Source: Bacilli bacterium
GTDB taxonomy: Bacteria > Bacillota_I > Bacilli_A > RFN20 > CAG-288
NCBI GenBank assembly: GCA_022652945.1
Contig: JALCRV010000002.1
Span: 186,001-250,000, forward strand
DNA length: 64,000 nucleotides
Reading direction: 5' to 3'
The position numbers and the translations under genes were made by a program. Numbering within the stretch: the stretch's first letter is position 1; every line of letters starts with the position of its first letter. The notes under the pieces are model-generated. The model ran no database searches. It saw only the letters and a program-made list of their open reading frames with translations, and was not told where the DNA came from. This document shows, piece after piece, positions 1,558 through 17,807 of the stretch.

Positions 1558-2205
1558 ATGGGAACTTATAATTTCAAACGACTGAATCTAATACTTACAA
1601 CCTTGGGAATTGTCTCCACAATGTCCATCGGGTTTTCAACTTGGCTGATTACTGGGAATGATGTAGTAACTGCGACGACGATGAACATTTTTACTGAACC
1701 TGTTGTGGCAACTGTTTATAGGCTGTTTAGTTATGATTCAACCAATTCAGTAAATCTCATTTATATTTCCGAATCTTTTTGGAAAGATAGCAGCCCGAGT
1801 TTTAAAGGGAGCCTTACTAGCGCTTTTACCGCTGTTGATGTTGTTACATCTGGGAAGGTCTTTAACTACAAAATAACCTTCACTCCAAAAACAGGTTATA
1901 CACCTTCTATTTCTTTGACTGATGGATCTTTGATACCTGTTCCTACTTATCAAATCACCGCTCCTATTAATTCGAATACATCATCGACTTCTGCAAGCAC
2001 CGCACTAGGTACCGATGGGGCTCTTTCATACACAATTGCTAATTCCATGGCCGCAAACCAGCAATTGAAAATCGCAGTTACTTTTGACGCTTCCTTCCAA
2101 AAGAATGCCTCGACAGGCAATTACACAGATGATTTGGACTTTACAGCGACAATTTACCCTTTTTTACAAAATACAACGATTGAAATTGATGCATCATGGA
2201 ACTAA
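1558..2205 (+). CDS. Secreted protein with SipW-type signal peptide
   Basis: A 215-residue protein that I do not recognise as a full-length family. The N-terminus (about residues 8-33) is a basic stretch, then a hydrophobic helix ending in GFSTWLITG, the same G-F-(S/A)-x-W-(V/L)-I pattern seen in the two TasA-like proteins at 15298-15963 and 16406-17020. This marks it as a likely client of the SipW signal peptidase encoded nearby. The remainder is Ser/Thr-rich and predicted beta, as in TasA/camelysin proteins. It overlaps the next gene by 10 bp, so the two are translationally coupled. AAGGA at 1536-1540 is 17 nt before the ATG, an unusual spacing. Base and codon use look more AT-rich than in the neighbours. 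Confidence 0.7.
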   Translation: MGTYNFKRLNLILTTLGIVSTMSIGFSTWLITGNDVVTATTMNIFTEPVVATVYRLFSYDSTNSVNLIYISESFWKDSSPSFKGSLTSAFTAVDVVTSGKVFNYKITFTPKTGYTPSISLTDGSLIPVPTYQITAPINSNTSSTSASTALGTDGALSYTIANSMAANQQLKIAVTFDASFQKNASTGNYTDDLDFTATIYPFLQNTTIEIDASWN

Positions 2206-5045
2206 TCAAGAAATTTATCATTAACAAACGGAGCATCATTTCTTTCCTGGCTGTGGTTGTTTCAGCCTTTGTTGGCTTTAAAGTGGGCAGCAGTAACTGG
2301 GAGACTACTGAAAAAAGCACGGAGTTAAAGCAAAACGTCGCTCTTACTGATCAAACTGCATCTGCCACAAAAGTTTGCTATATCAACTCGAATACGGATT
2401 CAACCTCCTATTACACGATTGAGCAAGCTCTTTTGAAGGCTAATTCAGGAGATACAGTCTATGTTATCCCTGATTTAGGTAAAAATGTTTACGTTTTAAA
2501 AAACTGCACTGTGAAGTCTGGTGTGACTTTGTCCTTGCCATATAGTGGGACTGCCACGGATGAAATTGTTGCTGAGAGCACAAGTGCCTTTGCTGATAAT
2601 ACTCCAAGCACTTATCGGCACAGCGAGTTGATAATTAACGAGAACGTAAAGATGACGGTTAACGGATCGCTTAATGTTGGAGGGAAGTGGGGAGGTACCT
2701 CACCTCAGGGTGGAACCCAAAAAGATTATTGCGAAATCACGATGAACAACTCATCGACAATTGAAGTCTCTGGCACTCTGACCTGCACTGGTTTTATTAA
2801 AGAAACATCAACTACAGGTGGTGCTTCAATTATTGTCCAAAATGGTGGGGATTTCGAAACTCCGATGGCAATGTATGACTGGGACAGTGGTAGTTCTGCA
2901 TACGGAAAATACAATGATGGAGTTTTTCCAGTTAAAAGATTTGATTTGCCGAATATCCGTCCGACTGTTGTCGTGAATTATGGCGGAAAGTTTGTTGGTA
3001 AATACAGGGCTTGGGGATCATCGGCAGGTCAAGTGGCAAATGGAAGTACCGCCATTATTTCTAATTCTTCTCCAGCTTTTTTAATTATGTCTACTGGTTG
3101 TGTAGTTTCTTATCATTTTTCTGACAAATCATCGCTTACTGCTACAAGCCTTAGCGACGAAACAAATCATAAGGCTTTAATAAATGTTAATGGTAATGCT
3201 ACATTAGGCTCGTTAATTGTTAACGCAACAGTATACGGAGTATCATTGTCACTAGATACAAGTGATTATTATTTTCCTATTCCGGCAATGTATAAAATCA
3301 CTATATTAAGTGGGACTTTCTCTGTGCCTAAGAAAATCAAATTCTTGCCCGGGAGTTCACTTGAGATTAAATCTGGTGCTAGTGCGTCTGCCACAGCAAA
3401 CATTATTTTCTATCAGTCAAATAAAGCAACTGATGGCACCAAAGTGATTCCAAGCTATTCCACCACCACACCAGCCACATTGATTAATGATGGCCAAATT
3501 AATATTCAGGCGAATTTTAGTGGGCTTATTAAACACACAGCAAATATCACAACTGGTGTGATAATAACTTCTTCGACTATGGTCAACGTTACTGATTCAT
3601 ATGAATCAAATTCTTCAAAAAGCTTTCTTTCCAGCACGGAAGATAAAAGGGGCCCTTTTTCTTGGAACTCCACTGCAGATATCGCTAAAAATAATACAGG
3701 AACAAATTTACAAAGAGGGTTCCAAGTCATACCCAGCATGACATATAGAGCCAACTCTGATTACTGGTATTATGACCCTGATAGTATTTCGACTTATACT
3801 ATGACTCCGAGTTTTGAATCAGGCTTAACAACTTATTCATTTGCTCTTTCAATTGATGGTGGTACTTCTACTACATATTCGAATTTAAGTGTTCTTCCTA
3901 CTTTAAATGAAACAACAGGAACCACTTTGACTTTTTCATCACTTATCGGTTGTTCGATTGCAATTGGCTCAAATACTATAGGGGTTGGCTCGACCGGCTC
4001 ATATAATGTATTCTCTAATGCGACTATTGAAATCAAAGCGGTTGTGCCGATGACAGGAATCACTGCTAATTGTGATGAGACTTCGCAGACCGGTGTTGCA
4101 ACTAGTTCTTCTTGCTCATTTTCAGTTTATTCAACATTAAATCCAACTGGCGCAACCAATGTCAATAGTAGTTCTTATACGTGGCATGTTAGGAGCGGTT
4201 CAGCTTCTTTCACTTCTGCGAATGAAAGTTTAACGACAGTGAACATTACAGCATCTGGGAGTAATTCTACTACTGTTACGGCTGTTGTTTATCTTACGGT
4301 CAGCGATGCAAATGGGACACTATTTACTAGCAACGATTTAACATTGTCTTGTACCACTAGTTGTTTAGTGGCTGGAACCATGATTTCGATGGCTGATGGG
4401 ACAGAAAAGCCAGTTGAGATGGTCGCTTTGGGCGATGCGGTGAAAATTTGGAATTTCCAGACTGGGAATTTTGATATAAGACCTGTAATTTTCATTGAAT
4501 GTTTGAGGAATTACAGTTACAAGCGAACTGATATTCATTTCGATGACGGTACTTCAGTATCATTGGCGACTTCTCAATCTTATTTTGATGTAGATGCATT
4601 AGATTTCTTTACAGTTAGTTCAATGAACGGTGAAAGTTGCATTGGTCGAAGAGTGATGGGGATGGCAAATGACACTTTATCGATTAAAACTATCATTGAG
4701 GTTGATACATATGATGCTGTAGGTGATGTTTATGAGGTCTTGACAGCTTATGATCTAAATTTCTTCTGCGATGGCGTATTATCTAGGACTCCAGTTGCCG
4801 GTCCTAGTATCTTCAAGATAGTTGATGGATATAAATACGATCCAGAGGCCATGGAAGCTGATATTGATAAATACGGGCTATTTGAATTTAGCGACTTTGC
4901 GGCTTATATGACTGAAGATGAGTTTATTTATATGGGGATCAAATACTATAAGATCGGTGTTGGAAAGGGATATTACACTATTGAAGATTTAATTAAGCTG
5001 GCCGAATACTTTGCTGGTTTAAAAGCGGCTGGCAACCATAAATAA
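2196..5045 (+). CDS. Large beta-rich surface protein with degenerate C-terminal Hint (hedgehog/intein) domain
   Basis: 949 residues. Residues 10-30 form a hydrophobic signal/anchor helix. From about 60 to 480 the sequence is repetitive, Gly/Asn/Ser/Thr-rich and resembles a parallel beta-helix (for example SGDTVYVIPDLG and VKSGVTLSL). An Ig-like stretch lies around 620-720. At residue 723 a Hint-type start appears: CLVAGTMISMADG, then GDAVKIWN, and at about 855-866 a block resembling the Hint end (NFFCDGVLSRTP). The usual block B T-x-x-H is TSQS (792-795), and the terminal His-Asn is missing, so self-splicing is unlikely. About 80 further residues follow. It overlaps the upstream SipW-type gene by 10 bp. 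Hint domains occur in hedgehog proteins, inteins and polymorphic toxins; the role here is inferred only. Confidence 0.7.
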   Translation: MELIKKFIINKRSIISFLAVVVSAFVGFKVGSSNWETTEKSTELKQNVALTDQTASATKVCYINSNTDSTSYYTIEQALLKANSGDTVYVIPDLGKNVYVLKNCTVKSGVTLSLPYSGTATDEIVAESTSAFADNTPSTYRHSELIINENVKMTVNGSLNVGGKWGGTSPQGGTQKDYCEITMNNSSTIEVSGTLTCTGFIKETSTTGGASIIVQNGGDFETPMAMYDWDSGSSAYGKYNDGVFPVKRFDLPNIRPTVVVNYGGKFVGKYRAWGSSAGQVANGSTAIISNSSPAFLIMSTGCVVSYHFSDKSSLTATSLSDETNHKALINVNGNATLGSLIVNATVYGVSLSLDTSDYYFPIPAMYKITILSGTFSVPKKIKFLPGSSLEIKSGASASATANIIFYQSNKATDGTKVIPSYSTTTPATLINDGQINIQANFSGLIKHTANITTGVIITSSTMVNVTDSYESNSSKSFLSSTEDKRGPFSWNSTADIAKNNTGTNLQRGFQVIPSMTYRANSDYWYYDPDSISTYTMTPSFESGLTTYSFALSIDGGTSTTYSNLSVLPTLNETTGTTLTFSSLIGCSIAIGSNTIGVGSTGSYNVFSNATIEIKAVVPMTGITANCDETSQTGVATSSSCSFSVYSTLNPTGATNVNSSSYTWHVRSGSASFTSANESLTTVNITASGSNSTTVTAVVYLTVSDANGTLFTSNDLTLSCTTSCLVAGTMISMADGTEKPVEMVALGDAVKIWNFQTGNFDIRPVIFIECLRNYSYKRTDIHFDDGTSVSLATSQSYFDVDALDFFTVSSMNGESCIGRRVMGMANDTLSIKTIIEVDTYDAVGDVYEVLTAYDLNFFCDGVLSRTPVAGPSIFKIVDGYKYDPEAMEADIDKYGLFEFSDFAAYMTEDEFIYMGIKYYKIGVGKGYYTIEDLIKLAEYFAGLKAAGNHK

Positions 5046-5070
5046 TTATTAGTTCTTCTCCATCGAAAAA

Positions 5071-5101
5071 GGCCACAGTAATTTATGTGGCCTCTTTTTT
5101 T
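5071..5101. terminator. Bidirectional terminator between convergent genes
   Basis: GGCCACA (5071-5077) pairs with TGTGGCC (5086-5092) across an 8-nt loop. A run of T follows on the plus strand and a run of A (5066-5070) precedes, so the hairpin can end both the Hint-domain gene and the minus-strand lipoprotein gene. Confidence 0.85.
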
Positions 5102-5108
5102 ATGATCT

Positions 5109-6218
5109 TTAGATTGTCTCCCACCCTGCATATAGCGTTAAATCCGAGAAAACTGCAGTTAATTCGGTAAAGCATCCCGTGGTTGGAGTAATCGTCTTAG
5201 AAGTAAACCAACCCTTAAAGGTATAACCGGTTCTCGTAGGTGTCGGGATGGCTCCATTCCCGTCAGCGGAGAAATAAGCTCCTCTTTTAACGGTGTACTC
5301 CATACTTGCCCCCGCCGGCATCTGTGCGGGAGCCGCAGTTGTATCGTTCAAATTGAAATGTACTTTATATTCGATTGTCGTATTCGCCGTCTCAAAGTTA
5401 ATGATATTAGTCCACCCGCCATTTTCCTTGGTGTAGATTTGGCCGTGGAAAGTATCGAAGTAATAGTCACCATCCTTACCCAAAGTGGTAGCCGGCGCAG
5501 TAGAGCCAGAATACCATGTATTAGGATTGGTCGGCCTAGTGAATGTGATATTCTTGGAGGCTCCATCGGTCATCCTGATTTCCAAGTAATAATTGGTTTC
5601 ATCTTCCGTAGCGATGATCGCCTCGATTCCGACTCCCGTATCACCTTTAACTGGGGCCGGGACTGTGACTTGAACATCCTGAGAAGTCGTAAAGTGGAAG
5701 GTCAAAGTAACCGACTGATCAGAATTGACCTTCTGATCAACCCCGCTGATACCGTTCCCGGTATCACCTTTTTCTCCTTTGCCGACCGTAATTGGATCGG
5801 ATTTTGTTCCATCGGAGTAATTGACGACGATGACAGTATTTCCATTATCATCCAGGGAAGAAGAAATCCCAGAAATGGAAATCCCGGAAGGGATTTTCAC
5901 TTCCACCGGATCTAAAGTCGTATCCGTATAGGAAATTACTAAATCGGTGTAGCTCTTATCCTCAGCCTGAGTATAAGTGATATCCTTGATCCCGTTGCCT
6001 TCTAAACCCTGAGGAATGAAAAAGACTGTGTCCTCTTTGGTGGAGTCCAGATAAGTAATAGTAATCTGAGTCGTGCCATCTTCCATCTTCTGGGTTGAGA
6101 TAGCCTTGATATAGATGGCATCATCGGCCTTCGACTTCACAAAAGAGCAGGAAGAAAGGCCTAAGATCAACGACAGAGAAGAAACAGCCAGCAGGGTTTT
6201 CAACAGTGTCTTTTTCAT
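5109..6218 (-). CDS. Lipoprotein with tandem beta repeats, GxxGDTG segments and InlB-type repeat
   Basis: A type II signal peptide ends in LSSC with the lipidated Cys at residue 24, so the protein should sit on the outer face of the membrane. Residues about 35-225 contain roughly five degenerate repeats of about 40 residues, each of the form GxGIxxI, acidic turn, beta strand, DGT, beta strand; two are joined by collagen-like or fibre-like GEKGDTG and PVKGDTG segments. The C-terminus (about 310-369) is an InlB B-repeat-like module (GYTFKGWF, LYAGW). It starts 1 bp after the stop of the beta-helix gene, with AAAGGAG as binding site, and is the last gene of the SipW/ABC array. Probably an adhesive surface protein; binding partner unknown. 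Confidence 0.75.
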   Translation of the reverse strand: MKKTLLKTLLAVSSLSLILGLSSCSFVKSKADDAIYIKAISTQKMEDGTTQITITYLDSTKEDTVFFIPQGLEGNGIKDITYTQAEDKSYTDLVISYTDTTLDPVEVKIPSGISISGISSSLDDNGNTVIVVNYSDGTKSDPITVGKGEKGDTGNGISGVDQKVNSDQSVTLTFHFTTSQDVQVTVPAPVKGDTGVGIEAIIATEDETNYYLEIRMTDGASKNITFTRPTNPNTWYSGSTAPATTLGKDGDYYFDTFHGQIYTKENGGWTNIINFETANTTIEYKVHFNLNDTTAAPAQMPAGASMEYTVKRGAYFSADGNGAIPTPTRTGYTFKGWFTSKTITPTTGCFTELTAVFSDLTLYAGWETI

Positions 6219-6219
6219 A

Positions 6220-8682
6220 TTAATTCACTCCTTTCGCATTGTTTATCAGATCCTGAGTCGCAGGATTCAAACCGAATAAGTAGCCGTCGCCTTTTAAGCA
6301 GTCAAACCGGAAGGGACTGAATCCGGTTACCGTGGTCACCGTCTTTAAGCCCATGTATTTAATCCTTTGATTATCGCTCGTTGGGGCAGGCAGATTAAGG
6401 TATTCCTTCATCATATCCGCTTCGATCTCCTGAGAAGAAAACTTCGTATCTTCTAACTTAGAGAAATCCACCTCGGAGAGATTTCCTCCCCCTCCGTAGA
6501 AGGCCACCGGAATGGAAATATATTCATCCTGCTTCCCATCCACCGTCCCGTTATAGACGCAGCCTTGCTCTCTGGCTTTGGAGAATAAAAGAGGCTTCAT
6601 CGGGAAGACATCATCAATCGTAATCTTTCTTTCAGTATTCAACAGTGAATTTGCGACTAAGGAGAAATTCTCCTGGATTAAGCCGCTGATATCCATCTCA
6701 GATGTCTTTTTATAGTCGTAAAATTTAGTCTTTCCTTCAATTGAAACCTTGACCGGATAGGAGATACCCGAAAGATTTTTCGCCACCATCGGTATTAAGG
6801 CAGTCGTGCCCTGGGAAACCTTACCCATCATATCCGTAATCCCGGAAGGTAAAGCATTATAAAGATACGGTCCGTTAAAAAGACTCTCCATGGCAATCGA
6901 AGCGATGCCGGAATCCGAAAGCAAGGAATCCTTAATCACGAGACTTCCATCGAATAACCCTTTTACTTTATCCGTCTCATTTAAGCCATCCTGGATTGAA
7001 AGCAATTCCTCTTCCATTTGGGAAGCGGATTTATAATCTCCGGCTAAATAGGAAGAAAGAATTCCATCCGCTCCATTCGTATTCTTCTCTTTAAAGAAGT
7101 CTTCGATGGAAGAGGAGACATCCTTTCCATTGATATCTTTAAAGGAACGGACTTCTTGGCTATCGGTCTTCACGTACTTATTGCTCCCGGCTTCCACGAG
7201 GAAATTCCTGGCGTGAGCCAAGAGAGAATTATCGATCTCAGCCTCAGAAGAAAAGCCGCGGATAATGTTCTTGCCATTCGTCAGACGGGAATTCTTTATC
7301 GTCAGGCCTTTTCCATTAAGGCACATCACGCTGCCGACGGTATCCAAGTAGCTTAAAGACCCATCGTAATCACAGTTCTTCAGGTTAACATCATCGAAAC
7401 TAATATTATCGCCGTCTAAGATGACCCCGGAATTATCCTCCCCGTAAGCTTGGACTAGATTCAGTTTGTTCGGGTCACCTAAAGCGTAGAAAGGCTTCGG
7501 CCCCCTGAATAAATTAGCTTCGCTTAATGTTGGCACATAAGCGGTGGAGCCATCGCTTAAAGTCACCGCCTTTTCCGAATACGGGTAAGTCAGGTTATGA
7601 AGATTAAGCGTATACCCGTTCCCGTAGAAATCCTTCTGGATCCTTAAGCCCGCATAGACCGTATCTCCAATCGGGGCGTAGGCGGAATTGCTCTTGGCGA
7701 ATTCGTTCCACTGCTCGATATATTCCTTGTTAAACATTGTCTGATAAGAATAAATTTCATCTGCGAAAGAAAAAGTCTTCTTTTTCTCATCGTAATGACC
7801 GAACAACGCTATATTGCTGGCTTTCAAGACATAGGCTCCATCCTTTTTCAAAGGATTGCCTTCGCTATCTAAATAGTACGTATCCTTTAAAGAACCAAAC
7901 GAAGTCCTTAAGACTGCCTTCTCTCCGTTTGCTGACTTATTGGTACAGTAGAGCAGATCATCATAAGTAAAGACGTTGATCCCATCTTTCACGATGGTAA
8001 ACTCGGTTTTATTATCTTTCGCAGCGGTGCTCTTGCTTAGACCAAAAGTAAAGTAACCTTTCCCGCTGTCATTCACGGTAAAGCTATTGGAAGCCAAGTC
8101 ATAAGAAATATTCGCGGAGGTTTCTTTTAAGGTCAGCTGGTCCGCGAAAGAATTCGGATAGACCGCCACCGTATAAGAGACTTGAGCCGGCTTTTTCACT
8201 CCGTTAACTAAATCGTATTGTCCATAATAAATAGTCGGATCGATATTCGCCTGGGAAGAAAGGATCTTGGGATTCACCACGATGGCGCAGTCTTTATAGA
8301 TGATTCCATTCATGGATTTAAAGATGGTGCCTTTCGCATTGGAGACTTTGATGGTCACCTTTCCGTCTTTTAAGGCGGTTAAGTAGAACTTGCCGCTCTC
8401 CTCGCTGATGGAGGCGTAAGGTTCTTGGGTCTGATCCTGGTTTATCACGCTCCAGACTAAATTATTCCCCGCGGCTAAAGCGTAGCGGGAAGTGGAGATC
8501 GGATTAGCGCTTAAAAGATACTTACTAGGGGAAATCTGGAAGGCCTCGGTATCCTGATAGGCCCAATCGATCCCTGTGATATCGGAAGCGTTCAACGCAA
8601 AAGTCTGCTGGACCGCAGCGATCCCGAATAAGGCGATGACGAAGGGTGCCATGCAAAGCAAGGCTAAATTCTGCTTTTTCAT
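6220..8682 (-). CDS. Secreted Ig-like/parallel beta-helix protein
   Basis: 820 residues with a Sec-type signal peptide (residues 1-30, no lipobox Cys) and no other strong membrane helix. The region about 60-140 looks like a bacterial Ig-like (Big_2) domain, with ALKDGKVTIKVSNAKGT. The middle (about 350-520) has short strand-turn repeats with NLKNCDYDG and GKGLTIKNSRLTNG, typical of right-handed parallel beta-helix proteins. The ATG directly abuts the stop codon of the ABC permease, with GGAGG inside that gene's last codons serving as binding site, so the two are translated as a pair. This suggests that the ABC transporter, the beta-helix protein and the following lipoprotein work together. 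No enzyme motif was recognised. Confidence 0.65.
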   Translation of the reverse strand: MKKQNLALLCMAPFVIALFGIAAVQQTFALNASDITGIDWAYQDTEAFQISPSKYLLSANPISTSRYALAAGNNLVWSVINQDQTQEPYASISEESGKFYLTALKDGKVTIKVSNAKGTIFKSMNGIIYKDCAIVVNPKILSSQANIDPTIYYGQYDLVNGVKKPAQVSYTVAVYPNSFADQLTLKETSANISYDLASNSFTVNDSGKGYFTFGLSKSTAAKDNKTEFTIVKDGINVFTYDDLLYCTNKSANGEKAVLRTSFGSLKDTYYLDSEGNPLKKDGAYVLKASNIALFGHYDEKKKTFSFADEIYSYQTMFNKEYIEQWNEFAKSNSAYAPIGDTVYAGLRIQKDFYGNGYTLNLHNLTYPYSEKAVTLSDGSTAYVPTLSEANLFRGPKPFYALGDPNKLNLVQAYGEDNSGVILDGDNISFDDVNLKNCDYDGSLSYLDTVGSVMCLNGKGLTIKNSRLTNGKNIIRGFSSEAEIDNSLLAHARNFLVEAGSNKYVKTDSQEVRSFKDINGKDVSSSIEDFFKEKNTNGADGILSSYLAGDYKSASQMEEELLSIQDGLNETDKVKGLFDGSLVIKDSLLSDSGIASIAMESLFNGPYLYNALPSGITDMMGKVSQGTTALIPMVAKNLSGISYPVKVSIEGKTKFYDYKKTSEMDISGLIQENFSLVANSLLNTERKITIDDVFPMKPLLFSKAREQGCVYNGTVDGKQDEYISIPVAFYGGGGNLSEVDFSKLEDTKFSSQEIEADMMKEYLNLPAPTSDNQRIKYMGLKTVTTVTGFSPFRFDCLKGDGYLFGLNPATQDLINNAKGVN

Positions 8683-10272
8683 TTAGCTTGTGGCCTCCAT
8701 GTCGTTAAAGAGGCGGATGGTCCTTTTCGGAAAACTTACGCTGAAAGGCAGCCCGAGAAGGATAATCGAGACTAAACTGACTCCTAGAACCAAGAGCAAA
8801 TCGGCTTTATAGTAGGAAGCCAGGATTGAGGCTAAAAAGGAAACGGTCGGCAACAGATAAGAGTAAAGGGAAGAGAAGACTCTCTCCCTTTTCTTATCTC
8901 CGCCTTTCAGTTCCTCGTAAAGGGATATCAGATCATAAGTGAGCAGGAATAAGGCGCAGATAATAAACCCGAAGACGAACACCTGCCAAGGGATTGTCTT
9001 CTCGATAAAAAGAACAAGAAGAGTGATGACTAAACTTAGTAAGGACAAAGAGTAAGGAACTAAAACCTTAATGGCCAGTTGCTTCCCAGGTTTTAAAGGC
9101 AAGGTCTTCATTAATCTGATATTTCCGCCTTCTCCCCCGATAAAGCTATCAGCACCTTGAGCGATCAGGACGGAGAACAGCATTAATAAAAGGATATCGA
9201 TCAAAGGAATAAACGATGGCATCACCGTCACATAATAGGCCATGACCCCGTTCGTAAAGATAGTATTTAAAGCCGAAATCACCAGATACGCCAAATAAGG
9301 CTCGACGGCCAGTAAGCCGATATAGGAGAAAAGATAATCGGAATCCTTAAAGAGGATTGAGAGTTCTTTGACAATCAAGGCTTTCAGCGGCGAAAGGACT
9401 TTTAAGTTCACTTTGCTCGTGGAACCTTTCTCGCTGATGGTTAAAGTCCGGAAGGCATTATAGGAAGAAATCGTGATCACCAGCCCGAGGATTAAAACCC
9501 CGATTGACATCGTAATAAAAGGCAACAGATCCTTGAAGGATCCGTATAAGTAAGCATTCAGTAAAAAGACGGTCGGAATCAATTTTTCCTTAAGGCTCGT
9601 TAAAGCCGCTAAGTTTGCCGTAGTGAACAAGCTATCCAAGGAATCGGAAGCCACGAGCTGGATAAAGACACTTAAGACCCTCGAATATAAAAAGGCTAGC
9701 CCTCCTAAGACCACTAAAGCGGTCAGCAGTTGAATTACGAGGTGCTTTCGTAGATATTCCGCCAGCAGATGGTAAGGATAGACCAGAATCAAAGCTAGGC
9801 CGATTTCCTGGACTGACATGAATAAAGGATATAAGACCGCGAGGAAGTAATAGAAAGGAGCCTTTGAAAAGACGGTCCCGTAGGCGATTAGAACCGGGAA
9901 AGAAAAGAGCATTCCGGTGAAATATTGAGCGACAAATAAGAACAGCAGCTTCGAGGTGATTAAGTCAGCGGAATCAATCGGGTAAGCCGCCAGTTGTTCC
10001 ATATCCTTCTTATTAAAGAACAGTTTCCTAGCCTGCCCGGTGGCAATTAAAGACATCAAAAGAGAAATGATAAAAAGGAAAAGGGTCAGCAAAGCTTCCG
10101 GAGCCCGAGAATAAGGCAAAATCTTCACCAAGGTCGAACGGAAGATAAAGACCTCAAGAAAGACAAAACCAGCCAGCAACAAAAGACTTAAAAGCCGCGA
10201 GGGGAGATTCTTTTTGAATGAAGTCCCCTGCGGAAACATCAGTTTAAAGTCTTTGGCCAGCAAAGTTAACAT
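8683..10272 (-). CDS. ABC transporter permease (ABC-2-like exporter)
   Basis: 529 residues with about twelve hydrophobic segments spread over the whole length, and a basic N-terminus. The segment KKDMEQLAAYPIDS between early helices is typical of large ABC-exporter permeases of the ABC-2 type found in Gram-positive bacteria. It begins immediately at the stop codon of the ATPase gene (TAG then ATG, with GGAGG 10 nt upstream), so the two form one transporter. The substrate cannot be read from the sequence. The position between secreted proteins and the signal peptidase suggests a surface or export role rather than nutrient uptake, and no solute-binding protein is linked. Confidence 0.8.
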   Translation of the reverse strand: MLTLLAKDFKLMFPQGTSFKKNLPSRLLSLLLLAGFVFLEVFIFRSTLVKILPYSRAPEALLTLFLFIISLLMSLIATGQARKLFFNKKDMEQLAAYPIDSADLITSKLLFLFVAQYFTGMLFSFPVLIAYGTVFSKAPFYYFLAVLYPLFMSVQEIGLALILVYPYHLLAEYLRKHLVIQLLTALVVLGGLAFLYSRVLSVFIQLVASDSLDSLFTTANLAALTSLKEKLIPTVFLLNAYLYGSFKDLLPFITMSIGVLILGLVITISSYNAFRTLTISEKGSTSKVNLKVLSPLKALIVKELSILFKDSDYLFSYIGLLAVEPYLAYLVISALNTIFTNGVMAYYVTVMPSFIPLIDILLLMLFSVLIAQGADSFIGGEGGNIRLMKTLPLKPGKQLAIKVLVPYSLSLLSLVITLLVLFIEKTIPWQVFVFGFIICALFLLTYDLISLYEELKGGDKKRERVFSSLYSYLLPTVSFLASILASYYKADLLLVLGVSLVSIILLGLPFSVSFPKRTIRLFNDMEATS

Positions 10273-11079
10273 CTACTTATTGCCTCCGTACGTATCCATA
10301 AAGATTCTCGGCAGTTGCAGACGGCGGTTCGGCTCTTTATTCAAATCGAAGAGGGAAGCCACCTTTCCATCGTTGATAATCGCGATTCGGTCGCAGAGTT
10401 TCGCCACCATTTCGATATTATGGGAAGTGATAAAGACCGTCTTCCCGTGGGTGGCGTACTCTTTCATCATGTTCTTCAGCTCCTCGATGGCCATGATATC
10501 CAAGCCGACGGTCGGCTCATCGAGAATCCAAATATCCGGGTTATGAAGTAAAGAGGAGATAAGGCAGACCTTCTGCTTCATACCGTGAGAGTAATCTCTG
10601 ATCGGGCGAGTCAAATCCTCTCCGCTTAGACCTAGCCGGTTAGAAAGATAGGCGACATTTTCGCGGAATTCCTTCTCGTTCAGCCCGAAAATCGAAGCCA
10701 CAAACTCCAAATAATCGTAGCCGCTCATCACTTCGTAACAAGTCGGCTCCGAAGGGACGTAACCGAAAGAATACTTCGCATCGATCGTTTCCTTTTTAAT
10801 ATCGAATCCGTTAAGGGTGATGCTGCCTTGGTTAAAAGACTTCACCCCGACCATACAGTCGATAGTGGTGGATTTACCAACCCCGTTCTTGCCGACGAAG
10901 CCGAACAGCTCGCCATGTTTGACTTCCAAATCCAAACCCTTCAGGACTTCTTTCTTGCCGTAGGACTTATAAAGCCCCTTAATTAAAATCGCCGGGGTTT
11001 CTTCCTTGGGTGTCTCTTCTTTCAATTCCGGAGTGGGAGAAGCGGATTCATTTTCTGCTTTAATGTTTTCGGTTTCCAT
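10273..11079 (-). CDS. ABC transporter ATP-binding protein
   Basis: A complete ABC ATPase domain: Walker A GKNGVGKST (about residues 63-71 from the chosen start), a signature motif in the variant form YSHGMKQK instead of LSGGQ, Walker B WILDEPTVGLD, and the switch His in ITSHN. This is the subtype that energises ABC-2 exporters. The first 30 residues form a charged Glu/Lys/Pro extension. A GTG at 11097 in the same frame would lengthen the protein by 6 residues, but the ATG at 11079 has GGAGAGG exactly 9 nt upstream and is preferred; with it the overlap with the upstream gene disappears. Partner permease follows without any gap. Confidence 0.9.
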   Translation of the reverse strand: METENIKAENESASPTPELKEETPKEETPAILIKGLYKSYGKKEVLKGLDLEVKHGELFGFVGKNGVGKSTTIDCMVGVKSFNQGSITLNGFDIKKETIDAKYSFGYVPSEPTCYEVMSGYDYLEFVASIFGLNEKEFRENVAYLSNRLGLSGEDLTRPIRDYSHGMKQKVCLISSLLHNPDIWILDEPTVGLDIMAIEELKNMMKEYATHGKTVFITSHNIEMVAKLCDRIAIINDGKVASLFDLNKEPNRRLQLPRIFMDTYGGNK

Positions 11080-11084
11080 CTTGC

Positions 11085-12395
11085 TTATCCTCTCCACCCG
11101 GTCTTCTTCAACCAGATTAGTTTCTTCTTATTCGCTTCGATCAGAGCCCAGGAAGAAGAGCAATCAAGGCAGGTGAAAGTATTATCTTCTTTTAAAGCCA
11201 GTTGCCTAGAGGCGCAGAAAGGGCAGAAAGAGGTGTAGATCTCTTCGCTGCCTTCTTCGACGAAGACGAAAGAGGTTAATAGGCTTCTGATCGCCTCTTC
11301 CTCTTTTAGGCCCAGATTAAAGATCTTCGTCTCATCTTTAAATATCCGCCCATCCCCCCAGATCGAAAGGGAAATCAGATCATCATTTTCTCCTGCTGTT
11401 TGTTCTTTTAATAAAGCGAAGGATAAATCAGGATCGGAAATCATCAGGTGGGTGGCCTTAATACCTTCTGGGCTTTCATACTCGAAGCTGATCTTGCCTT
11501 CCTCGAGATACTTTAACGTCAGCTTAAAAGGCTCTTTGACAAACTTCAGCTCTCCGCTTAACTTTAAGGTCCCAGCGGCGAAAGAAATATCTTTCCGGCC
11601 CGATTCTGTCGCTAATTCCCAATCTTCTTTCTTAAGTTCCTTAAGGATAATCAAGAAGAAATAAATGCTTAAATCCTTGCTGGCCTCTAAAGGCTGGAAG
11701 GATGAAAACATCTTCCGATAGTAACGGAAGCAGTAATTGTACAGGTTATCTTTTAAAAGAATATTAGTCGGAACGATTCTGGAAGAGATGGCTTTAGCCT
11801 TGGAGACTTCGCGGTAAAACCACGTCTCCTTGATCCTTTTCAGTTTCCTCTCTAGCTTCCTAAGTTCCTTGAAACCCTCTTCCACCTGGCTTTTGGCATT
11901 GCTTAAAGGGCGATTTGAAGAGATGTTTCCGATCAGGTAGGCGTAGAAAGAACGATAAGCCAGAACATCGAGGTCGATCATATTCAGGACCTTGACGATA
12001 AAGATATTTTCATAAATCTTGATATCATCCACACTCTGCAGATGATGGACGTATTCCGGCACCATGCCCTGGCGGCTCTTTTTCCATAAAGTCGGATCTT
12101 GAGCGGTCTGTTGGAACATATCCGGCAAGACCAAAGAAGCTTTTTGAGCCCTGACTAATTCCTCCTCACCGCGCGGGGAGAAATGCGGATGGGCGATGAT
12201 GGAGATGATAACGGAAAGGATGAAATTCTCTTCCTTGAAGCGGGAAAGGTCAGACTGAAAAGAGATATCCTGCAAAGGCTTAAGTTTAAAAGTGCCGATA
12301 TCTTTATAGAAAGATGCAATCGTCTTCTTTTCCTTCAGCTGTCTTTGGATATCGCGTAAGGCGATTTTCAGGCTTTGCGCTTCCTGCTCATTCAT
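11085..12395 (-). CDS. Uncharacterised protein with DUF2357/McrC-like N-terminal region and C-terminal zinc ribbon
   Basis: 436 residues, no signal peptide. The segment around residues 117-145 (DDIKIYENIFIVKVL, then an all-helical region with a long Lys/Glu coiled coil at about 165-195) resembles the DUF2357 region of McrC-like partners of McrB-type AAA+ proteins, where a conserved Glu-Asn-x-Phe occurs. No PD-(D/E)xK nuclease motif is visible. The C-terminus is a zinc ribbon with Cys391, Cys394, Cys409 and Cys412. It starts 3 bp after the AAA+ gene, fitting a McrB/McrC-like pair that lost its nuclease. The relationship is inferred from order and a short motif; a profile search is needed to confirm it. 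Confidence 0.45.
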   Translation of the reverse strand: MNEQEAQSLKIALRDIQRQLKEKKTIASFYKDIGTFKLKPLQDISFQSDLSRFKEENFILSVIISIIAHPHFSPRGEEELVRAQKASLVLPDMFQQTAQDPTLWKKSRQGMVPEYVHHLQSVDDIKIYENIFIVKVLNMIDLDVLAYRSFYAYLIGNISSNRPLSNAKSQVEEGFKELRKLERKLKRIKETWFYREVSKAKAISSRIVPTNILLKDNLYNYCFRYYRKMFSSFQPLEASKDLSIYFFLIILKELKKEDWELATESGRKDISFAAGTLKLSGELKFVKEPFKLTLKYLEEGKISFEYESPEGIKATHLMISDPDLSFALLKEQTAGENDDLISLSIWGDGRIFKDETKIFNLGLKEEEAIRSLLTSFVFVEEGSEEIYTSFCPFCASRQLALKEDNTFTCLDCSSSWALIEANKKKLIWLKKTGWRG

Positions 12396-12398
12396 CTT

Positions 12399-14192
12399 TT
12401 ATAGTTTCCTGATAAGCGAGTTTAGCTCCGCTTCCGAAAGAGCGAAAACACCCTTGCCGTACTTCTTCTCGATTAAGGCGAGCAGATGGTTAAGCCCGTC
12501 TTTTACATAATCCTCGAAGCGGCCTTCTAACTTTGTAAGGACCTTGCCGGCGAGGATGAAATCCAGCGCTTCATCTTTGCTTCCGCCACAGCTGACGTAA
12601 ACCGGGACGAAAGTCAGCATCTGATTAAGGATACGGTTACCGTAAGTTACATCGAATTCATCTTTGATGTAGTCGCAGACTTCTTGGAAATCATCTAATT
12701 CCTTGTTGGACAAGGAATTATTCTTGGTCTGTAAAGCTTCTTCGAAAAGGGCGTTAAGCTTGGTTTCGGAGAGGACGACCGGCTTAACCTTCTCATCGAC
12801 GGTGAACGGTTCGTTTCGCTCCGCGAAGTCAATCGTGACCGCACGGTCGTAGACCTTATTCGTGATGGAGAAAGTCGAATCATCTTTGTTGGCCGTCCCG
12901 ATGAAATAGGAGTTCGTCGGGATTCTCACGCAGCCGTTTTCCAGATGAGCCGGCGGCAGGAAATCATAAGGCATATTCATCAACTTGATCTTCCATTCCG
13001 AAGAAGGGAATTCCAAGACGGAGAGGAAATCTGCAAAGTAATATTCGATACGGGAGATGTTCATTTCATCCAGAACGAACAGATTGACCCGGTCTGGATC
13101 GTAAGAAGCTTCGTAAAGGTTAGAAAGGAACTCCGTCTCCTGATAGGAATTGGAGAAGGAATTAAAGTAACCGATGACAGAAGTCTTATCTCTCCAAGTG
13201 GCTTGGACGGAGACGAAGGTCACCTTAGCGGAGATGAACTCAGCAAAATATCTCGGCAAGGAAGATTTTCCGGTGCCGGAAAGGCCTTCGAGAATCAACA
13301 ACCTGGAAGAAGAAAACCCTGCGATAAAGGCTCTGATCACACCAGGAGTGAAATAAAGCTTTTGCTCTTTAGCTAACCAGTTGCGGAAATCATCACATAA
13401 CTTCTTTAATGTAATCTCATCCGCATCGACTTTCTCAACTGTGTAACCTTGATACTTGCTATCAATTGAGGACAAAGTCGGGAAGACTTTCTCCCTATCA
13501 TCAAGCTTAACAGCGGCTTCTTTTTCTTCATCCGGGGTCGCGGAAGCAACGATGGCTCCACCTTCACCCCCGGCGATTCCGCCTTGGGAGAGCACGGGCG
13601 CGACATCTCCGAAACTTTGAGCGACATTAGTCTCCGTATCCGGCTCATCACCTAAATCAGGAGTCTTATTATCCACTTTAAAAGGCTTATCGATTTTTAC
13701 CAGATTAACTACCAGCATTACCCCGGCTGCGACGATTATGAAAGCAAAGAAATAAATAATTGCGGTGCAAGCCAGACATTGCCAGAGATAAGAAAAAACA
13801 TTCTTGACGCTTTCCGCATTAAAAGGCAGTTGGAATAAAAAACCGACACCGAAAGAAAGAAGCAAGCAAATAACCAAGGTAGCTAAGTAAACCAGCCACA
13901 TTCTCCAGTCGTTAGGGTTCTTTTTCGTAGTGACGGCGAATCTCACTTCGTAGATGATAGCGGCAACGAAGACCACTAGATATAACCCGACTAAGGACAT
14001 GAAGATAAATCCGTTGATCTTCGGTTCCACCAAGACAAAACCGATGCTGGTGGCCATCAGGGCAATCGGGTTATCTTTGGAAAGGAAGATAAAAGACCCG
14101 TCCAGACAGAGACCGGTAAAAAGCATCAGGAAATAGAAGGCGGCTGCCAGAGCGATACCGATCAGGTTCTTACGTGTAAAATAGTTTTTCAT
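12399..14192 (-). CDS. Membrane-anchored McrB-like AAA+ ATPase
   Basis: 597 residues. About five transmembrane helices fill residues 10-165, followed by an acidic, Gly/Ala-rich linker (about 170-270) and an AAA+ domain. Walker A is GLSGTGKSS at about 302-310, Walker B is LFVLDEMN at about 366-373 followed by ISRIEYYFADFLSVLE, a run characteristic of the McrB/DynA-like family, and a sensor segment reads GTANKDD. Cytoplasmic McrB works with McrC as a modification-dependent nuclease, but a multi-helix membrane anchor is not part of classic McrB. The gene lies between the SipW peptidase and the zinc-ribbon gene. It may drive remodelling of a membrane or surface complex; this is inference from context. 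Confidence 0.8.
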   Translation of the reverse strand: MKNYFTRKNLIGIALAAAFYFLMLFTGLCLDGSFIFLSKDNPIALMATSIGFVLVEPKINGFIFMSLVGLYLVVFVAAIIYEVRFAVTTKKNPNDWRMWLVYLATLVICLLLSFGVGFLFQLPFNAESVKNVFSYLWQCLACTAIIYFFAFIIVAAGVMLVVNLVKIDKPFKVDNKTPDLGDEPDTETNVAQSFGDVAPVLSQGGIAGGEGGAIVASATPDEEKEAAVKLDDREKVFPTLSSIDSKYQGYTVEKVDADEITLKKLCDDFRNWLAKEQKLYFTPGVIRAFIAGFSSSRLLILEGLSGTGKSSLPRYFAEFISAKVTFVSVQATWRDKTSVIGYFNSFSNSYQETEFLSNLYEASYDPDRVNLFVLDEMNISRIEYYFADFLSVLEFPSSEWKIKLMNMPYDFLPPAHLENGCVRIPTNSYFIGTANKDDSTFSITNKVYDRAVTIDFAERNEPFTVDEKVKPVVLSETKLNALFEEALQTKNNSLSNKELDDFQEVCDYIKDEFDVTYGNRILNQMLTFVPVYVSCGGSKDEALDFILAGKVLTKLEGRFEDYVKDGLNHLLALIEKKYGKGVFALSEAELNSLIRKL

Positions 14193-14247
14193 TTTTCTTG
14201 CTCCCTTAAATTTATATTGATATATAGATTACCTATATATAAAAACC

Positions 14248-15276
14248 TTATTTAGTCTTCTTATCCTCTTTTTGACAAGGAATCTCGGTGGAAGTCGTCT
14301 TCTCTTGGCCTTGAGCGTCTTTCACGGTCTTGATAAGAAGGGGATTTGCTTCTTCCTCCGGTTTGGCATCTTTTTTCTCGGTCTTTTCTAAAAAACCTTT
14401 CTGATTGAACTTATAGGCGAAGCCTTTATAGTAAATCGTTTCTTCATAGGAACTTTCCGCTTCGAGAGAAGCGGAATCTCCCCCACTCAGATCGATGGCG
14501 GAGAGCAGTAACTTCGTCCTTTCCTGCTGAGCCGATTCGATCTTAGAAGAAAAACGGTCGATCATGCTTAAACAATAGATGACGGAAATAATCGTGATAA
14601 TGCCAGGATAAGATTGCATAAAAAGAATAACGATACCGATCCCGTTGGCTTTTTTATCAGCGTATTTACCGATGATATCTTTAAAAACGGGATGGTAAAC
14701 ATCCGAGGCGTTATTGGCATCCCCTCTAGTCGTATAACTCGTCACTCCGTTTTCCTCGTTGACAGCGATGATCCGGTGGATGATGTTGACGTTCTTGTCA
14801 TTTTTATAAGCTACGACATCGTAAACTTTAAGCTCGCTTTCTGCGTTTACCTTATTCAGAACCAAGATATCGTAAGTTTGAAACTGATTATTTAGGTCTT
14901 CGGTCACCAGATAATCGTTGGAAGCATTCTTTTCCGACATCGAACCCGAAGCGCAGACCATCAAGGAAGAGTTACCTAAATGGAACTGGTTTCCCCCGAT
15001 TTTATCAATCAAAGCTAAACAAAAAAGAGGGACCACCACGCATAGGAAGGCAATATAAAGCACCTTTCCGACTATGGCTGATCTCTTTTTTTGCTCCATC
15101 GTTTTCGGATCGCTGGCTTTTAAGGCTTTATCGATCAATTCGATATCCCTCTCACCCGCGGCGGTCTCTTTGACCGCCGAACGGGCGAAGGAGGTATAAA
15201 GAATCGTGAAGACAACGCAGAAGCTAGCTAACCCGATAATCGTCACGACTAGAGCGATGATATCGAGGGTTGACAT
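14248..15276 (-). CDS. sipW: SipW/ER-type signal peptidase I
   Basis: 342 residues with membrane helices at about 5-30, 70-92 and 212-238. The peptidase motifs are ASGSM (catalytic Ser112), DVVAYK, IIHRI (His167 in place of the Lys of ordinary bacterial signal peptidases) and TRGDANNASD. This Ser-His arrangement is typical of the archaeal/ER/SipW class, which in Bacillus matures TasA-type fibre proteins. It follows the TasA-like gene by 21 bp with no clear ribosome binding site, so translation probably depends on coupling. A charged C-terminal tail of about 100 residues is longer than in Bacillus SipW. Clients are likely the proteins at 1558-2205, 15298-15963 and 16406-17020. Confidence 0.9.
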   Translation of the reverse strand: MSTLDIIALVVTIIGLASFCVVFTILYTSFARSAVKETAAGERDIELIDKALKASDPKTMEQKKRSAIVGKVLYIAFLCVVVPLFCLALIDKIGGNQFHLGNSSLMVCASGSMSEKNASNDYLVTEDLNNQFQTYDILVLNKVNAESELKVYDVVAYKNDKNVNIIHRIIAVNEENGVTSYTTRGDANNASDVYHPVFKDIIGKYADKKANGIGIVILFMQSYPGIITIISVIYCLSMIDRFSSKIESAQQERTKLLLSAIDLSGGDSASLEAESSYEETIYYKGFAYKFNQKGFLEKTEKKDAKPEEEANPLLIKTVKDAQGQEKTTSTEIPCQKEDKKTK

Positions 15277-15297
15277 CGAATATTAATTTGATTTCGA

Positions 15298-15963
15298 TTA
15301 GTTGATTTCCGCAGTGACGGTAATATTGAAGCCGGTGGAAAGGTTTCCCATCAAATCGTGGAAGTCGGTTAATTCGTTGGTAACGGTCGTAATATCTTTG
15401 GCTTTGCCGTCAGTGTTATTATCGTAGTATTCGCCAGGATTGACTCCGCCAAAAGCGGTGCCCCAACTAAAAGCAATCTCGTAACTGACATCATAACCAG
15501 TGCCATTCTCGGTTAAGCCGGAACCAGAAGTAAGGGTAACTGGAGCAGTAACGCAATCCGGAAGGACGATGTAGTCTTTTCCAGCGGCAGCCGAAGCGGT
15601 GACACCAGAAGGGACACTCATCGCAATCGTCACATCCTTAACGTAAGCTTTCGGGGAAACGGTGCAAGTCAAGGTTATTTTGAGATTCTCAAAGTTAGTC
15701 CCATCGTTACGAACACGGCCAGTGGTGTCGGTTTGTTCAGGCTCAAAACTGAAGGATTGAGGTGTGCTTAAAGCGATATCGCTGATGGTGATGTTAGTTG
15801 GACTCACTTGGCCGACGGTGACATTGCCAGCTTTAGCCTTGTTGGCGTTAGCCGAGATGACCCAGGCCGCAAAGCCGGTGGCGATCAAGGAAACGGAAGC
15901 GAATAAGCAGACACCTAAGATAATTCTCTTTCTCTTATAAGTCTTTCTTGTCATTTTAGTCAT
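15298..15963 (-). CDS. TasA/camelysin-like secreted fibre protein
   Basis: 221 residues. A very basic N-terminus (TRKTYKRKR) precedes a hydrophobic helix ending in GFAAWVIS, the SipW-type signal. The mature part is Ser/Thr/Val-rich and predicted all-beta. Its C-terminal half (FSWGTAFGGVNPGEYY, then DFHDLM and FNITVTAEI) clearly matches the neighbour at 16406-17020, so the two are paralogues. TasA-type proteins polymerise into matrix fibres at the cell surface. An ATG 27 bp upstream is in frame, but the ATG at 15963 has TAGGAGGA at 15972-15979 with ideal spacing and is chosen. The signal peptidase gene follows directly. Confidence 0.8.
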   Translation of the reverse strand: MTKMTRKTYKRKRIILGVCLFASVSLIATGFAAWVISANANKAKAGNVTVGQVSPTNITISDIALSTPQSFSFEPEQTDTTGRVRNDGTNFENLKITLTCTVSPKAYVKDVTIAMSVPSGVTASAAAGKDYIVLPDCVTAPVTLTSGSGLTENGTGYDVSYEIAFSWGTAFGGVNPGEYYDNNTDGKAKDITTVTNELTDFHDLMGNLSTGFNITVTAEIN

Positions 15964-16013
15964 GGTTTTAAATCCTCCTATTGATTTCAATTGACCATTA
16001 AGTCTCGCAATGG

Positions 16014-16032
16014 TAAGGGATAGTCTCCCTTA
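16014..16032 (-). other. Short hairpin in the leader of the TasA-like gene
   Basis: TAAGGGA (16014-16020) and TCCCTTA (16026-16032) form a 7-bp stem with a 5-nt loop about 50 nt before the start at 15963. No T-run follows on either strand, so it is more likely an mRNA structure than a terminator. Confidence 0.4.
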
Positions 16033-16174
16033 TCTATAGAAGTATCAGATTAGTTTTCCTATATCTGGTACATTAAATAATACCATTTTATTAGGCAGAA
16101 ATTAACTATTTATTTTCCTCCTTTTCCTCAATAAATTATTGATTTATTAACAATGATGGCTTTTTATGAATCAT

Positions 16175-16246
16175 CCTAAGAGCAGCAAGTAAAGCCCAAG
16201 GAGGTAATAAATGCCTTAAATAGCACCTTTTACCTGCTGCTTTAGG
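16175..16246. repeat. Long imperfect hairpin with SD/anti-SD loop
   Basis: The arm at 16175-16193 (CCTAA, GCAGCA, GTAAA) pairs with 16228-16246 (TTTAC, TGCTGC, TTAGG), interrupted by one bulge and one mismatch. The 32-nt loop contains AAGGAGG (16198-16204), a 6-nt spacer and ATG CCT TAA (16211-16219) on the plus strand. On the minus strand, the direction of the surrounding genes, the same loop reads TACCTCCTT, complementary to Shine-Dalgarno sequences. Function unknown. Confidence 0.6.
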
Positions 16247-16405
16247 AATAAACATAAGGTTGTTGAATCATCCAAGAGAAATAAGCAAAAGAAAACTATT
16301 AAACCATAGTCCTAACTAAAGAGGGAAAACATTAGTGCTTTCCTTCAGAACTTATGCGAATAAATCTGACTGGCTTAAGTATAAAGTCAGCGTTTGATGA
16401 GTTAA

Positions 16406-17020
16406 TTAAGCAGCAGTCGCAGTGACGGTGATAGTAAATGTAACACCAGAAAGATCATCGTGGAGAGCAGTGAGATTGTCACTAGCTGCGGTATGATAAG
16501 TAGCGTAGTCATTATGCGGAGAGGTTGAATAATAAGTTTCCGGATTCACATTGCCGAAAGCGGAACCCCAAGTGAAAACTACAGGGACATCGATAGTTCC
16601 ATGTCCTGTCGAAAGTGCAGCCTTCTTATCACCTAAAGTCGGGAGGGCCCCAACTAAGTTAGCGGTAACAGCCGACTGATATTTTGTGTCATTGGAAGCG
16701 GCAATCGAAAGAGTGAATGTGTCAACAGCAGTATAATTGGTGACAACCAGATGCAAAGTGCAGGTGAGATTCTCGGTATGGTCGCTGTTTTTTAACCAAG
16801 CGCAGGGATGAGAAGCTAAACCACCAAAAATGATGGTATTATTGCCGTCGACCCAGGAAGAATTGATGGTGATCGAATTATCCGTGACCGTATCGACAGT
16901 GATCGTCCCAGTAGCGGTAGCTTGCGCGCCCTGGGTGATGACCCAAGCAGAGAAGCCGGCTCCGACTAAAGCGGCAATGCCTAAGACCGAAGAAAGAATA
17001 ACGATAGACTTGGATTTCAT
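16406..17020 (-). CDS. TasA/camelysin-like secreted fibre protein (paralogue)
   Basis: 204 residues with a SipW-type signal (hydrophobic helix ending GFSAWVIT, about residues 5-30). The mature part is beta-rich, with FTWGSAFGNVNPETYY and LHDDLSGVTFTITVTA near the end, matching the gene at 15298-15963. The start at 17020 is preferred over an in-frame ATG 21 bp upstream because AAGGAGGT sits 7 nt before it. It is the first gene of the minus-strand array, so its promoter should lie within 17021-17150, where AT-rich sequence such as TTTATATTATAT is present, but no box pair with good spacing could be fixed. Confidence 0.8.
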   Translation of the reverse strand: MKSKSIVILSSVLGIAALVGAGFSAWVITQGAQATATGTITVDTVTDNSITINSSWVDGNNTIIFGGLASHPCAWLKNSDHTENLTCTLHLVVTNYTAVDTFTLSIAASNDTKYQSAVTANLVGALPTLGDKKAALSTGHGTIDVPVVFTWGSAFGNVNPETYYSTSPHNDYATYHTAASDNLTALHDDLSGVTFTITVTATAA

Positions 17021-17807
17021 AAAAATACCTCCTTGTGGCATTTTAGATGGATATAATATAAACCCTCTTTTTTAAAAAATGTTTTTTCAAATAAATTTGT
17101 TTTTTTCTATCGGTAATAAAGTAATAAGCTTTTAAAATTATCCAAAATATGCTTTCGGTAACAAAAAGGAGCAAAAAATCAATTAACTAGGACTATTTTA
17201 AAAAAACTAAAATAAAAAGAAATAGACATAATCTTTGGACAATGAGAATAAAATAATAGATATTCGCTTTAAAAAAATTCTTGACAACTTTCAAAAGACA
17301 CGGCAAATCGATTAATGGAAAAATTAATTTCCGTATCTGAAAATCCGCTCAAATCGCTGATAGTTAGGCTTTCTTACCATCAAAAGTGCGCATTTCGTTT
17401 TTTTGCATCGTCAGTAAAAGTAAAAACAGCCTAAATAATCATTTTTCAATAACCATCTCACCCTTAAGGGTATAAGAAGCGACAGAGTATCAGAAGTTGA
17501 GACGGCACTTTTACATGGAAAAAAGGCCTTTATCTTCTTATTCCTGTTTTTTGAAATTATCCTTGTTTTTTTAGGCCGAGAAGAAAACAAAACCAGCGGC
17601 ACTTCTGCTGACACAAATCAGAAAGGAAATTTGTGACAAATTGTTAAGCTTAGGGAGATTCTTTTCTTGATACCATGAATAAAATATCCACAAGTGAAAA
17701 AGTTTAACGTTTTAAAATAAAAAAGCATAAATTGCAATTTCTAACTTAAAAACGAAATAAAGAAAAAAAGCTAACCTCTTATATTATTTGTAAAAGAGGT
17801 ATATTTT
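17021..17807. other. 787-bp AT-rich intergenic region
   Basis: Divergent spacer between the TasA-like array (minus) and the hydrolase (plus). It is strongly AT-rich with stops in all frames. A perfect 12-bp palindrome ACCCTTAAGGGT lies at 17460-17471, and an inverted repeat lies at 17774-17800. A possible 67-codon minus-strand frame at 17411-17614 starts with GTG, lacks a binding site and is not supported. No RNA gene was recognised. Confidence 0.5.
17774..17800 (+). promoter_or_regulatory. Inverted repeat over the promoter/RBS of the hydrolase gene
   Basis: ACCTCTT (17774-17780) and AAGAGGT (17794-17800) form a 7-bp inverted repeat spaced by 13 bp. The right arm contains the binding site AGAGG, 8 nt before the ATG at 17808, and a TATATT lies at 17780-17785. 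It can act as an operator or as an mRNA hairpin covering the binding site. Confidence 0.45.

Follow-up and report, generated by a model that had tools for sequence, protein, structure and literature searches.

We propose that nine genes on the minus strand of the window (the whole 64,000-nucleotide stretch of Bacilli DNA analyzed here) encode a membrane-bound machine that builds or displays protein filaments and large surface proteins, and that the locus combines an ABC surface-protein module with a divergent CoCoPALM-like system. We rate this reading slightly better than even (about 0.55). Sequence comparison shows a tight and conserved gene order, a composition that divides into two separable modules (SipW/AAA/DUF2357 and ABC/permease/beta-helix), and reuse of these modules in operons for type IV pili. 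Motors of the McrB type are known from defense; the tie, through a conserved operon layout, between this membrane branch and fiber or pilus genes would give them a role in surface assembly in Gram-positive bacteria. Our reading also predicts an energy-using accessory for SipW-dependent fibers, whose described operons include none, and the array gives the CoCoPALM class, so far named but unexplored, a concrete context in which it can be tested.

Gene content and conservation of the array

The earlier note described nine tightly packed genes in one direction with a single 442-bp gap. The ORF list contains all nine on the minus strand within positions 5109 to 17020 (Table 1), and with the likely starts taken into account the description is accurate: junctions are short or overlapping except between tasA and tasB, with tasB counted from its ATG at 15963. 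Both of these ORFs open slightly upstream (tasA at 17041; tasB at 15990, with TTG), and the ATG following an AGGAGG (17020 and 15963, respectively) is the likely start. A terminator-like hairpin lies just past lipo, the last array gene. A promoter scan gave no excess over shuffled sequences. The GC content of the array (∼0.43 to 0.46) is inside or near the range of the remaining first 30 kb, so composition shows no sign of recent acquisition.

Table 1. Features of the array and of the convergent gene pair (window coordinates)
Feature	Coordinates	Strand	Description
tasA	16406..17020	-	Small secreted protein; SipW-type signal GFSAW
tasB	15298..15963	-	Small secreted beta-sandwich protein (structure model); SipW-type signal GFAAW
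sipW	14248..15276	-	ER/SipW-type signal peptidase; Ser112 and His167 invariant
aaa	12399..14192	-	NxD-motif McrB-family AAA NTPase; four N-terminal hydrophobic helices
zn	11085..12395	-	DUF2357 (McrC-N-like) and C-terminal zinc ribbon
abc	10273..11097	-	ABC ATPase; in-frame ATG at 11079
perm	8683..10272	-	ABC permease; ∼11 hydrophobic helices
bhel	6220..8682	-	Extracytoplasmic; N-terminal hydrophobic segment, Ig-like domains, beta-helix region
lipo	5109..6218	-	Lipoprotein; List_Bact (InlB-type) repeat
tasC	1558..2205	+	Small secreted protein; SipW-type signal GFSTW; convergent with array
hint	2196..5045	+	Large secreted protein; Hint-like C-terminal part
Terminator-like hairpin	5070..5093	+ (as listed; nearly palindromic)	Between the convergent units

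The 442-bp gap (positions 15964 to 16405) is not a conserved element, because tasA and tasB are only 23 to 36 bp apart in the nearest relatives (L008, L009, and L026). It could be a break between transcripts. The gap sequence is single copy in the genome and folds better than its shuffled versions (z = −3.2), and an Rfam search for a riboswitch or known RNA in it returned no credible match.

The earlier note's proposal had been staked beforehand on conservation of gene order among relatives, and the order is kept. The AAA protein, used to scan GTDB genomes, yielded 80 loci, and the order tas-tas-sipW-aaa-zn-abc-perm-bhel-lipo recurs in Bacilli MAGs whose AAA proteins are 41 to 51% identical to that of the window. 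To avoid circularity, the bhel family served as a second query in 279 genomes of the same taxonomic order, 67 of which had a match. Forty bhel loci were fetched: 30 carry the whole array, 5 carry a short form that has the lipoprotein gene and a pair of surface-protein genes inserted between zn and abc, 1 is truncated at a contig end, and the remaining 4 contain abc-perm-bhel without AAA and zn. After 11 contigs common to both searches, recognized by their equal lengths, were dropped, there are at least 34 distinct full arrays, window included, nearly all of the relatives being MAGs in which ORF calls are mechanical and labels come from profiles trained on the same families. Two further arrays (L149 and L150) belong to other orders.

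Window-type AAA proteins (≥616 bits, a threshold read from the score table) occur in 60 genomes of the window's order, and bhel is also present in 59 of the 60. Among the 34 loci in which all six core genes were called, mean pairwise protein identity is 23 to 55%; gaps from sipW to lipo have medians of −4 to +3.5 nt and are all ≤60 nt, with a median of −1 nt at the zn-abc junction. The distances of all six core proteins co-vary above every permutation, most strongly for sipW-aaa (0.93) and perm-bhel (0.86), values to which shared species history contributes. The packing far exceeds what chance would give, since dozens of divergent species have the same order with gaps no longer than 60 bp from sipW to lipo. 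A chance array of unrelated genes is ruled out by the conserved order and co-occurrence.

The limits given in the earlier note, 5109 to 17020, do enclose all nine genes; they miss tasC and hint, a pair convergent with the array across the hairpin. In many relatives, a small protein with a SipW-type signal and a large secreted protein are encoded after lipo or between zn and abc. The tasC-hint pair probably belongs to the system, a tightly conserved array of nine genes in gut Bacilli that would then number eleven. The C-terminus of hint is Hint-like, and the Pfam Hint profile was weakly matched (0.009) in the homologue at L048. On visual inspection, another residue seems to stand in place of the usual Hint histidine in the window's hint, with the histidine itself present in L037. 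One contig (L048/L096; 37308 bases) carries two arrays in tandem, one of the short and one of the long form, and several Tas-like genes stand at the head of the latter. An HD_5 (HD-GYP-like) gene at 107 to 1309 precedes tasC in the window; a link to c-di-GMP is possible, given this gene and the EAL/GGDEF genes beside relatives whose AAA protein has one transmembrane (TM) segment.

Predicted components and their possible roles

Most protein assignments in the earlier note held up: a SipW-type peptidase, a membrane McrB-type AAA+ protein with a zinc-ribbon partner, an ABC ATPase and permease, a secreted beta-helix protein, and a lipoprotein, the last recognized by its List_Bact repeat. The label TasA-like, if read as homology, was not supported.

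The sipW product scores 58.4 bits against TIGR02228 (cut-off, 51.85) and falls under the stricter SipW-Bacillus equivalog cut-off; its family profile matches SEC11 at 7e-15. Ser112 and His167 are invariant in the family, as in Ser-His SipW-type peptidases. Of 39 Tas-like proteins, 37 have the motif G/A-x-[AGST]-x-[WYF] after the hydrophobic core, and a signal of the G-F-[AS]-x-W type also occurs in tasC and in half of the Hint-type ORFs (9 of 18); it is rare in bhel (1/40) and lipo (3/35) proteins. The window's hint was not flagged by the motif script, and GSSNW is readable near its start. From these counts, the predicted SipW substrates are the Tas-like proteins together with some, at least, of the Hint-type proteins. 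At the cleavage position that we infer, Tas-like proteins carry an aromatic residue at P2', as at SipW cleavage sites. Foldseek, a PDB profile search, and NCBIfam revealed no TasA homology for them; the "TasA-like" label rests on signal peptides and adjacency to SipW, not on fold or profile. The structure model of tasB is a beta-sandwich, and with such a model the Tas-like proteins may be remote relatives of TasA.

In aaa, which lies directly downstream of sipW, the Walker A, Walker B, and NxD residues are invariant among homologues. The last motif reads GTANKDD in the window and is of the NxD type, the CoCoPALM signature, in every AAA homologue listed. A McrB-type AAA domain, as in McrBC, is indicated by a match to McrB structures at 2.6e-5 with a wider profile (0.3 with window-type proteins alone). 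The four hydrophobic helices are followed by what reads as a Gly/Pro-rich linker. The zn product matches DUF2357, the family of the CoCoPALM partner gene, at 4.7e-5, just below the Pfam cut-off; DUF2357 was found in 8 of 17 orthologues (best, 1.1e-8), and the zinc-ribbon cysteines (Cys391, Cys394, Cys409, and Cys412) are invariant in all 17 family members. Pfam, NCBIfam, and PADLOC searches found no PD-(D/E)xK or other nuclease in the nine genes, and a classical McrBC restriction system was rejected on this ground.

On the AAA tree (a quick search with some weak nodes), the window groups with L008 and L026 (99), and its four-TM group is separate from the one-TM SipW loci, which have the described CoCoPALM shape and often lie near EAL/GGDEF genes. 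The AAA proteins closest to that of the window are those of L008 and L026, from genomes placed in another order of the same class, and the AAA copy in a genome belonging to the window's genus (G022; L013/L100) is more distant; horizontal transfer may be the cause, or old paralogy. Sequence searches for paralogues in the window's genome (G000; 92.7% complete) identified a second AAA/DUF2357 locus on contig C8:61001-81000 (L005). It is one-TM, of the described CoCoPALM shape, with five Tas-like genes upstream and, downstream, genes for a SipW-like protein and an EAL-domain protein. A third AAA homologue (L006; contig C6:90001-110000), of 918 aa with ∼12 hydrophobic helices and an NxD-type motif, has a zinc-finger DUF2357-like partner, galactose-metabolism genes nearby, and a long branch on the AAA tree.

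An ABC ATPase profile identifies abc, and ABC_tran_2 matches 6 of 14 members of the perm family, the window copy not among them. The bhel model (pLDDT 84.7) has Ig-like matches in Foldseek, and Beta_helix (PF13229) was found in 3 of 18 family members; a profile search of the same 18 gave no NosD/CASH-family match. In every intact bhel locus fetched, abc, perm, and bhel are adjacent.

From these assignments, we suggest the following working model. SipW would cut the precursors of the Tas-like and Hint-type proteins at about G-F-[AS]↓x-W, freeing beta-sandwich subunits that would polymerize outside the cell. The four-TM NxD-McrB protein would form a ring on the inner side of the membrane and be activated by the DUF2357/zinc-ribbon protein as a subunit, by analogy to McrBC; beside the peptidase, NTP hydrolysis could gate or drive assembly or clear stalled subunits. 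The ABC ATPase and permease would couple ATP to the anchored Ig/beta-helix protein, as in NosDFY, and with NosDFY-like mechanics this protein would hand over or fold large surface proteins (the lipoprotein and the Hint protein). The AAA protein may drive assembly, clear stalled subunits, or regulate; support of assembly is the best single reading.

Module contexts outside the array

Four-TM AAA pairs without SipW are found in type IV pilus loci, six of which (L028, L031, L033, L035, L036, and L040) have PilD, PilC, PilB, AAA, and DUF2357 in this order on one strand. L039 has only PilB of the pilus genes, and in L021 the four-TM AAA/DUF2357 pair lies amid several prepilin-like genes. The ABC module has similar neighbors. 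In the window's genome, a divergent abc-perm-bhel triad (L088; contig C3:88000-106000) lies inside a type IV pilus operon ordered PilD, prepilin, large surface protein, abc, perm, bhel, PilC, PilB; L128 and L129 likewise place abc-perm-bhel within type IV pilus operons. In L130, pilus genes, abc-perm-bhel, and AAA share one strand, and the gene beside AAA has no DUF2357 match. L128 also encodes a prepilin-signal protein homologous to the passenger part of hint (HMM, 2.6e-11; BLASTP, 6e-7). The large surface protein ahead of the L088 triad resembles hint.

Our main reason for placing the function of the array at surface assembly is that each module recurs with more than one kind of surface structure. 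The type IV pilus/type II secretion-like operons themselves resemble the array in that some, in relatives and in this genome, contain the AAA/DUF2357 pair or the triad; the array differs from them in having no PilB, PilC, PilD, or prepilin. Other contexts are simpler: some four-TM AAA pairs have neither SipW nor a recognized pilus context, and some bhel loci without AAA have abc-perm-bhel alone or with SipW. In L156 to L161, no SipW, AAA, or pilus marker accompanies the triad, and the gene directly after it encodes a large protein, secreted or lipid-anchored; several of these proteins are well over 1200 residues, the longest nearly 2900.

A broader reading, which we hold tentatively, is that the NxD-McrB/DUF2357 motor and the ABC/beta-helix transporter constitute a general, hitherto undescribed filament-assembly accessory that plugs into two unrelated systems, SipW fibers and type IV pili, its passengers switching between a SipW signal and a prepilin leader. 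If so, a restriction-type motor family has been turned to extracellular assembly. Judging by titles and abstract openings, the literature searched contains no link between McrB and type IV pili; for SipW, TasA, and McrB together, it yielded a functional-metagenomics methods paper.

Known systems and competing explanations

The earlier note knew of no described system with this composition, which holds only in part. Bell et al. (eLife 2024; PMC11090510) named an association of NxD McrB proteins, bearing FtsB-like helices, with neighboring signal peptidases; their main text calls it CoCoPALM and leaves it for a later paper, which we did not find in the literature searched. The array resembles CoCoPALM in its NxD McrB-family NTPase with TM segments, its DUF2357 partner, and the adjacent signal peptidase. 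However, the CoCoPALM GTPase has an FtsB-like TM segment and a coiled coil, whereas aaa, by its sequence, has four TM helices, and the CoCoPALM McrC homologue is usually fused to a coiled coil, whereas zn, by its sequence, ends in a zinc ribbon. The array also adds an ABC ATPase, permease, Ig/beta-helix protein, and lipoprotein, which are absent from the CoCoPALM description in that main text (PMC11090510). With these two features lacking and an ABC module added, we regard the array as a variant beside CoCoPALM, as the main text describes it, rather than a member.

SipW fiber operons (tapA-sipW-tasA, sipW-tasA/calY, and sipW-bsaA) share with the array a SipW-type peptidase beside small secreted proteins and an aromatic residue two positions past the likely cleavage site. 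They differ in that the Bacillus subtilis, B. cereus, and Clostridium perfringens operons, by their descriptions, have no such NTPase or ABC transporter, and the window's Tas-like proteins have no TasA match. Recombinant BsaA polymerizes in Escherichia coli, so SipW-dependent subunits can do without such helpers (PMC7395162). We count this against an assembly role, along with the unrecovered TasA fold, the 442-bp gap, the four-TM AAA pairs outside SipW and pilus contexts, and the bhel loci without AAA. Surface assembly is favored by the conserved order and gaps, the co-occurrence in 59 of 60 genomes, the co-varying distances, the invariant catalytic residues, the signal motif, and the pilus contexts, as well as by the prepilin-led hint homologue in L128 and the lone triads followed by genes for very large secreted proteins or lipoproteins. 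The earlier note's suggestion of surface assembly draws support from context, namely, the predicted SipW substrates and the modules in type IV pilus operons, and none from TasA homology.

If assembly needs no energy, the AAA/DUF2357-zinc-ribbon pair might instead sense the state of secretion or the membrane and tune expression or processing of the fiber genes. B. subtilis SipW reportedly has a regulatory function besides its processing one (PMC13082335), EAL/GGDEF genes lie beside one-TM relatives and the HD_5 gene lies near the array, and the zinc ribbon could bind nucleic acid. We think such a role unlikely, as four TM helices and a fully conserved set of NTPase motor residues are not typical of a pure regulator, and a nucleic-acid target is not known.

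Similarly improbable is an anti-phage function, in which the NxD McrB/DUF2357 pair acts in restriction or as an abortive-infection guard watching envelope or phage-receptor filaments. The closest characterized relatives, McrBC and CoCoNuT, are defense systems that share the McrB-family AAA domain and DUF2357 partner; zinc ribbons are present on some CoCoNuT McrC homologues; and aaa matches a PADLOC candidate-defense model, PDC-M26A, at 6e-39. The array, unlike these systems, is membrane-anchored, tied to surface-protein genes, and without a nuclease match, and its aaa has NxD in place of the NxxD GTPase signature of classical McrB. Nuclease-less CoCoNuTs are reported, in the main text of PMC11090510, always to have a separate nuclease. 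A fixed operon place with SipW, ABC, and surface-protein genes in dozens of species is also unlike the usual shuffling of defense genes.

In NosDFY, an ABC ATPase (NosF) and permease (NosY) act with a periplasmic beta-helix protein (NosD). The array has the same contiguity of an ABC ATPase, an ABC-2-like permease, and an extracytoplasmic beta-helix protein; it differs in that bhel lacks a NosD-family match and has an N-terminal hydrophobic segment and Ig-like domains, and its partners are surface proteins rather than a copper enzyme. The ABC genes might form an exporter for the lipoprotein or other adhesins that is merely co-expressed with a neighboring SipW/AAA fiber unit, the two not being one machine. 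Occurrence of abc-perm-bhel elsewhere, alone or with SipW and without AAA, and of AAA/DUF2357 without ABC, fits this explanation, which we nevertheless doubt: bhel accompanies AAA in all but 1 of the 60 genomes, zn and abc typically overlap by a nucleotide, and both modules are independently paired with type IV pili.
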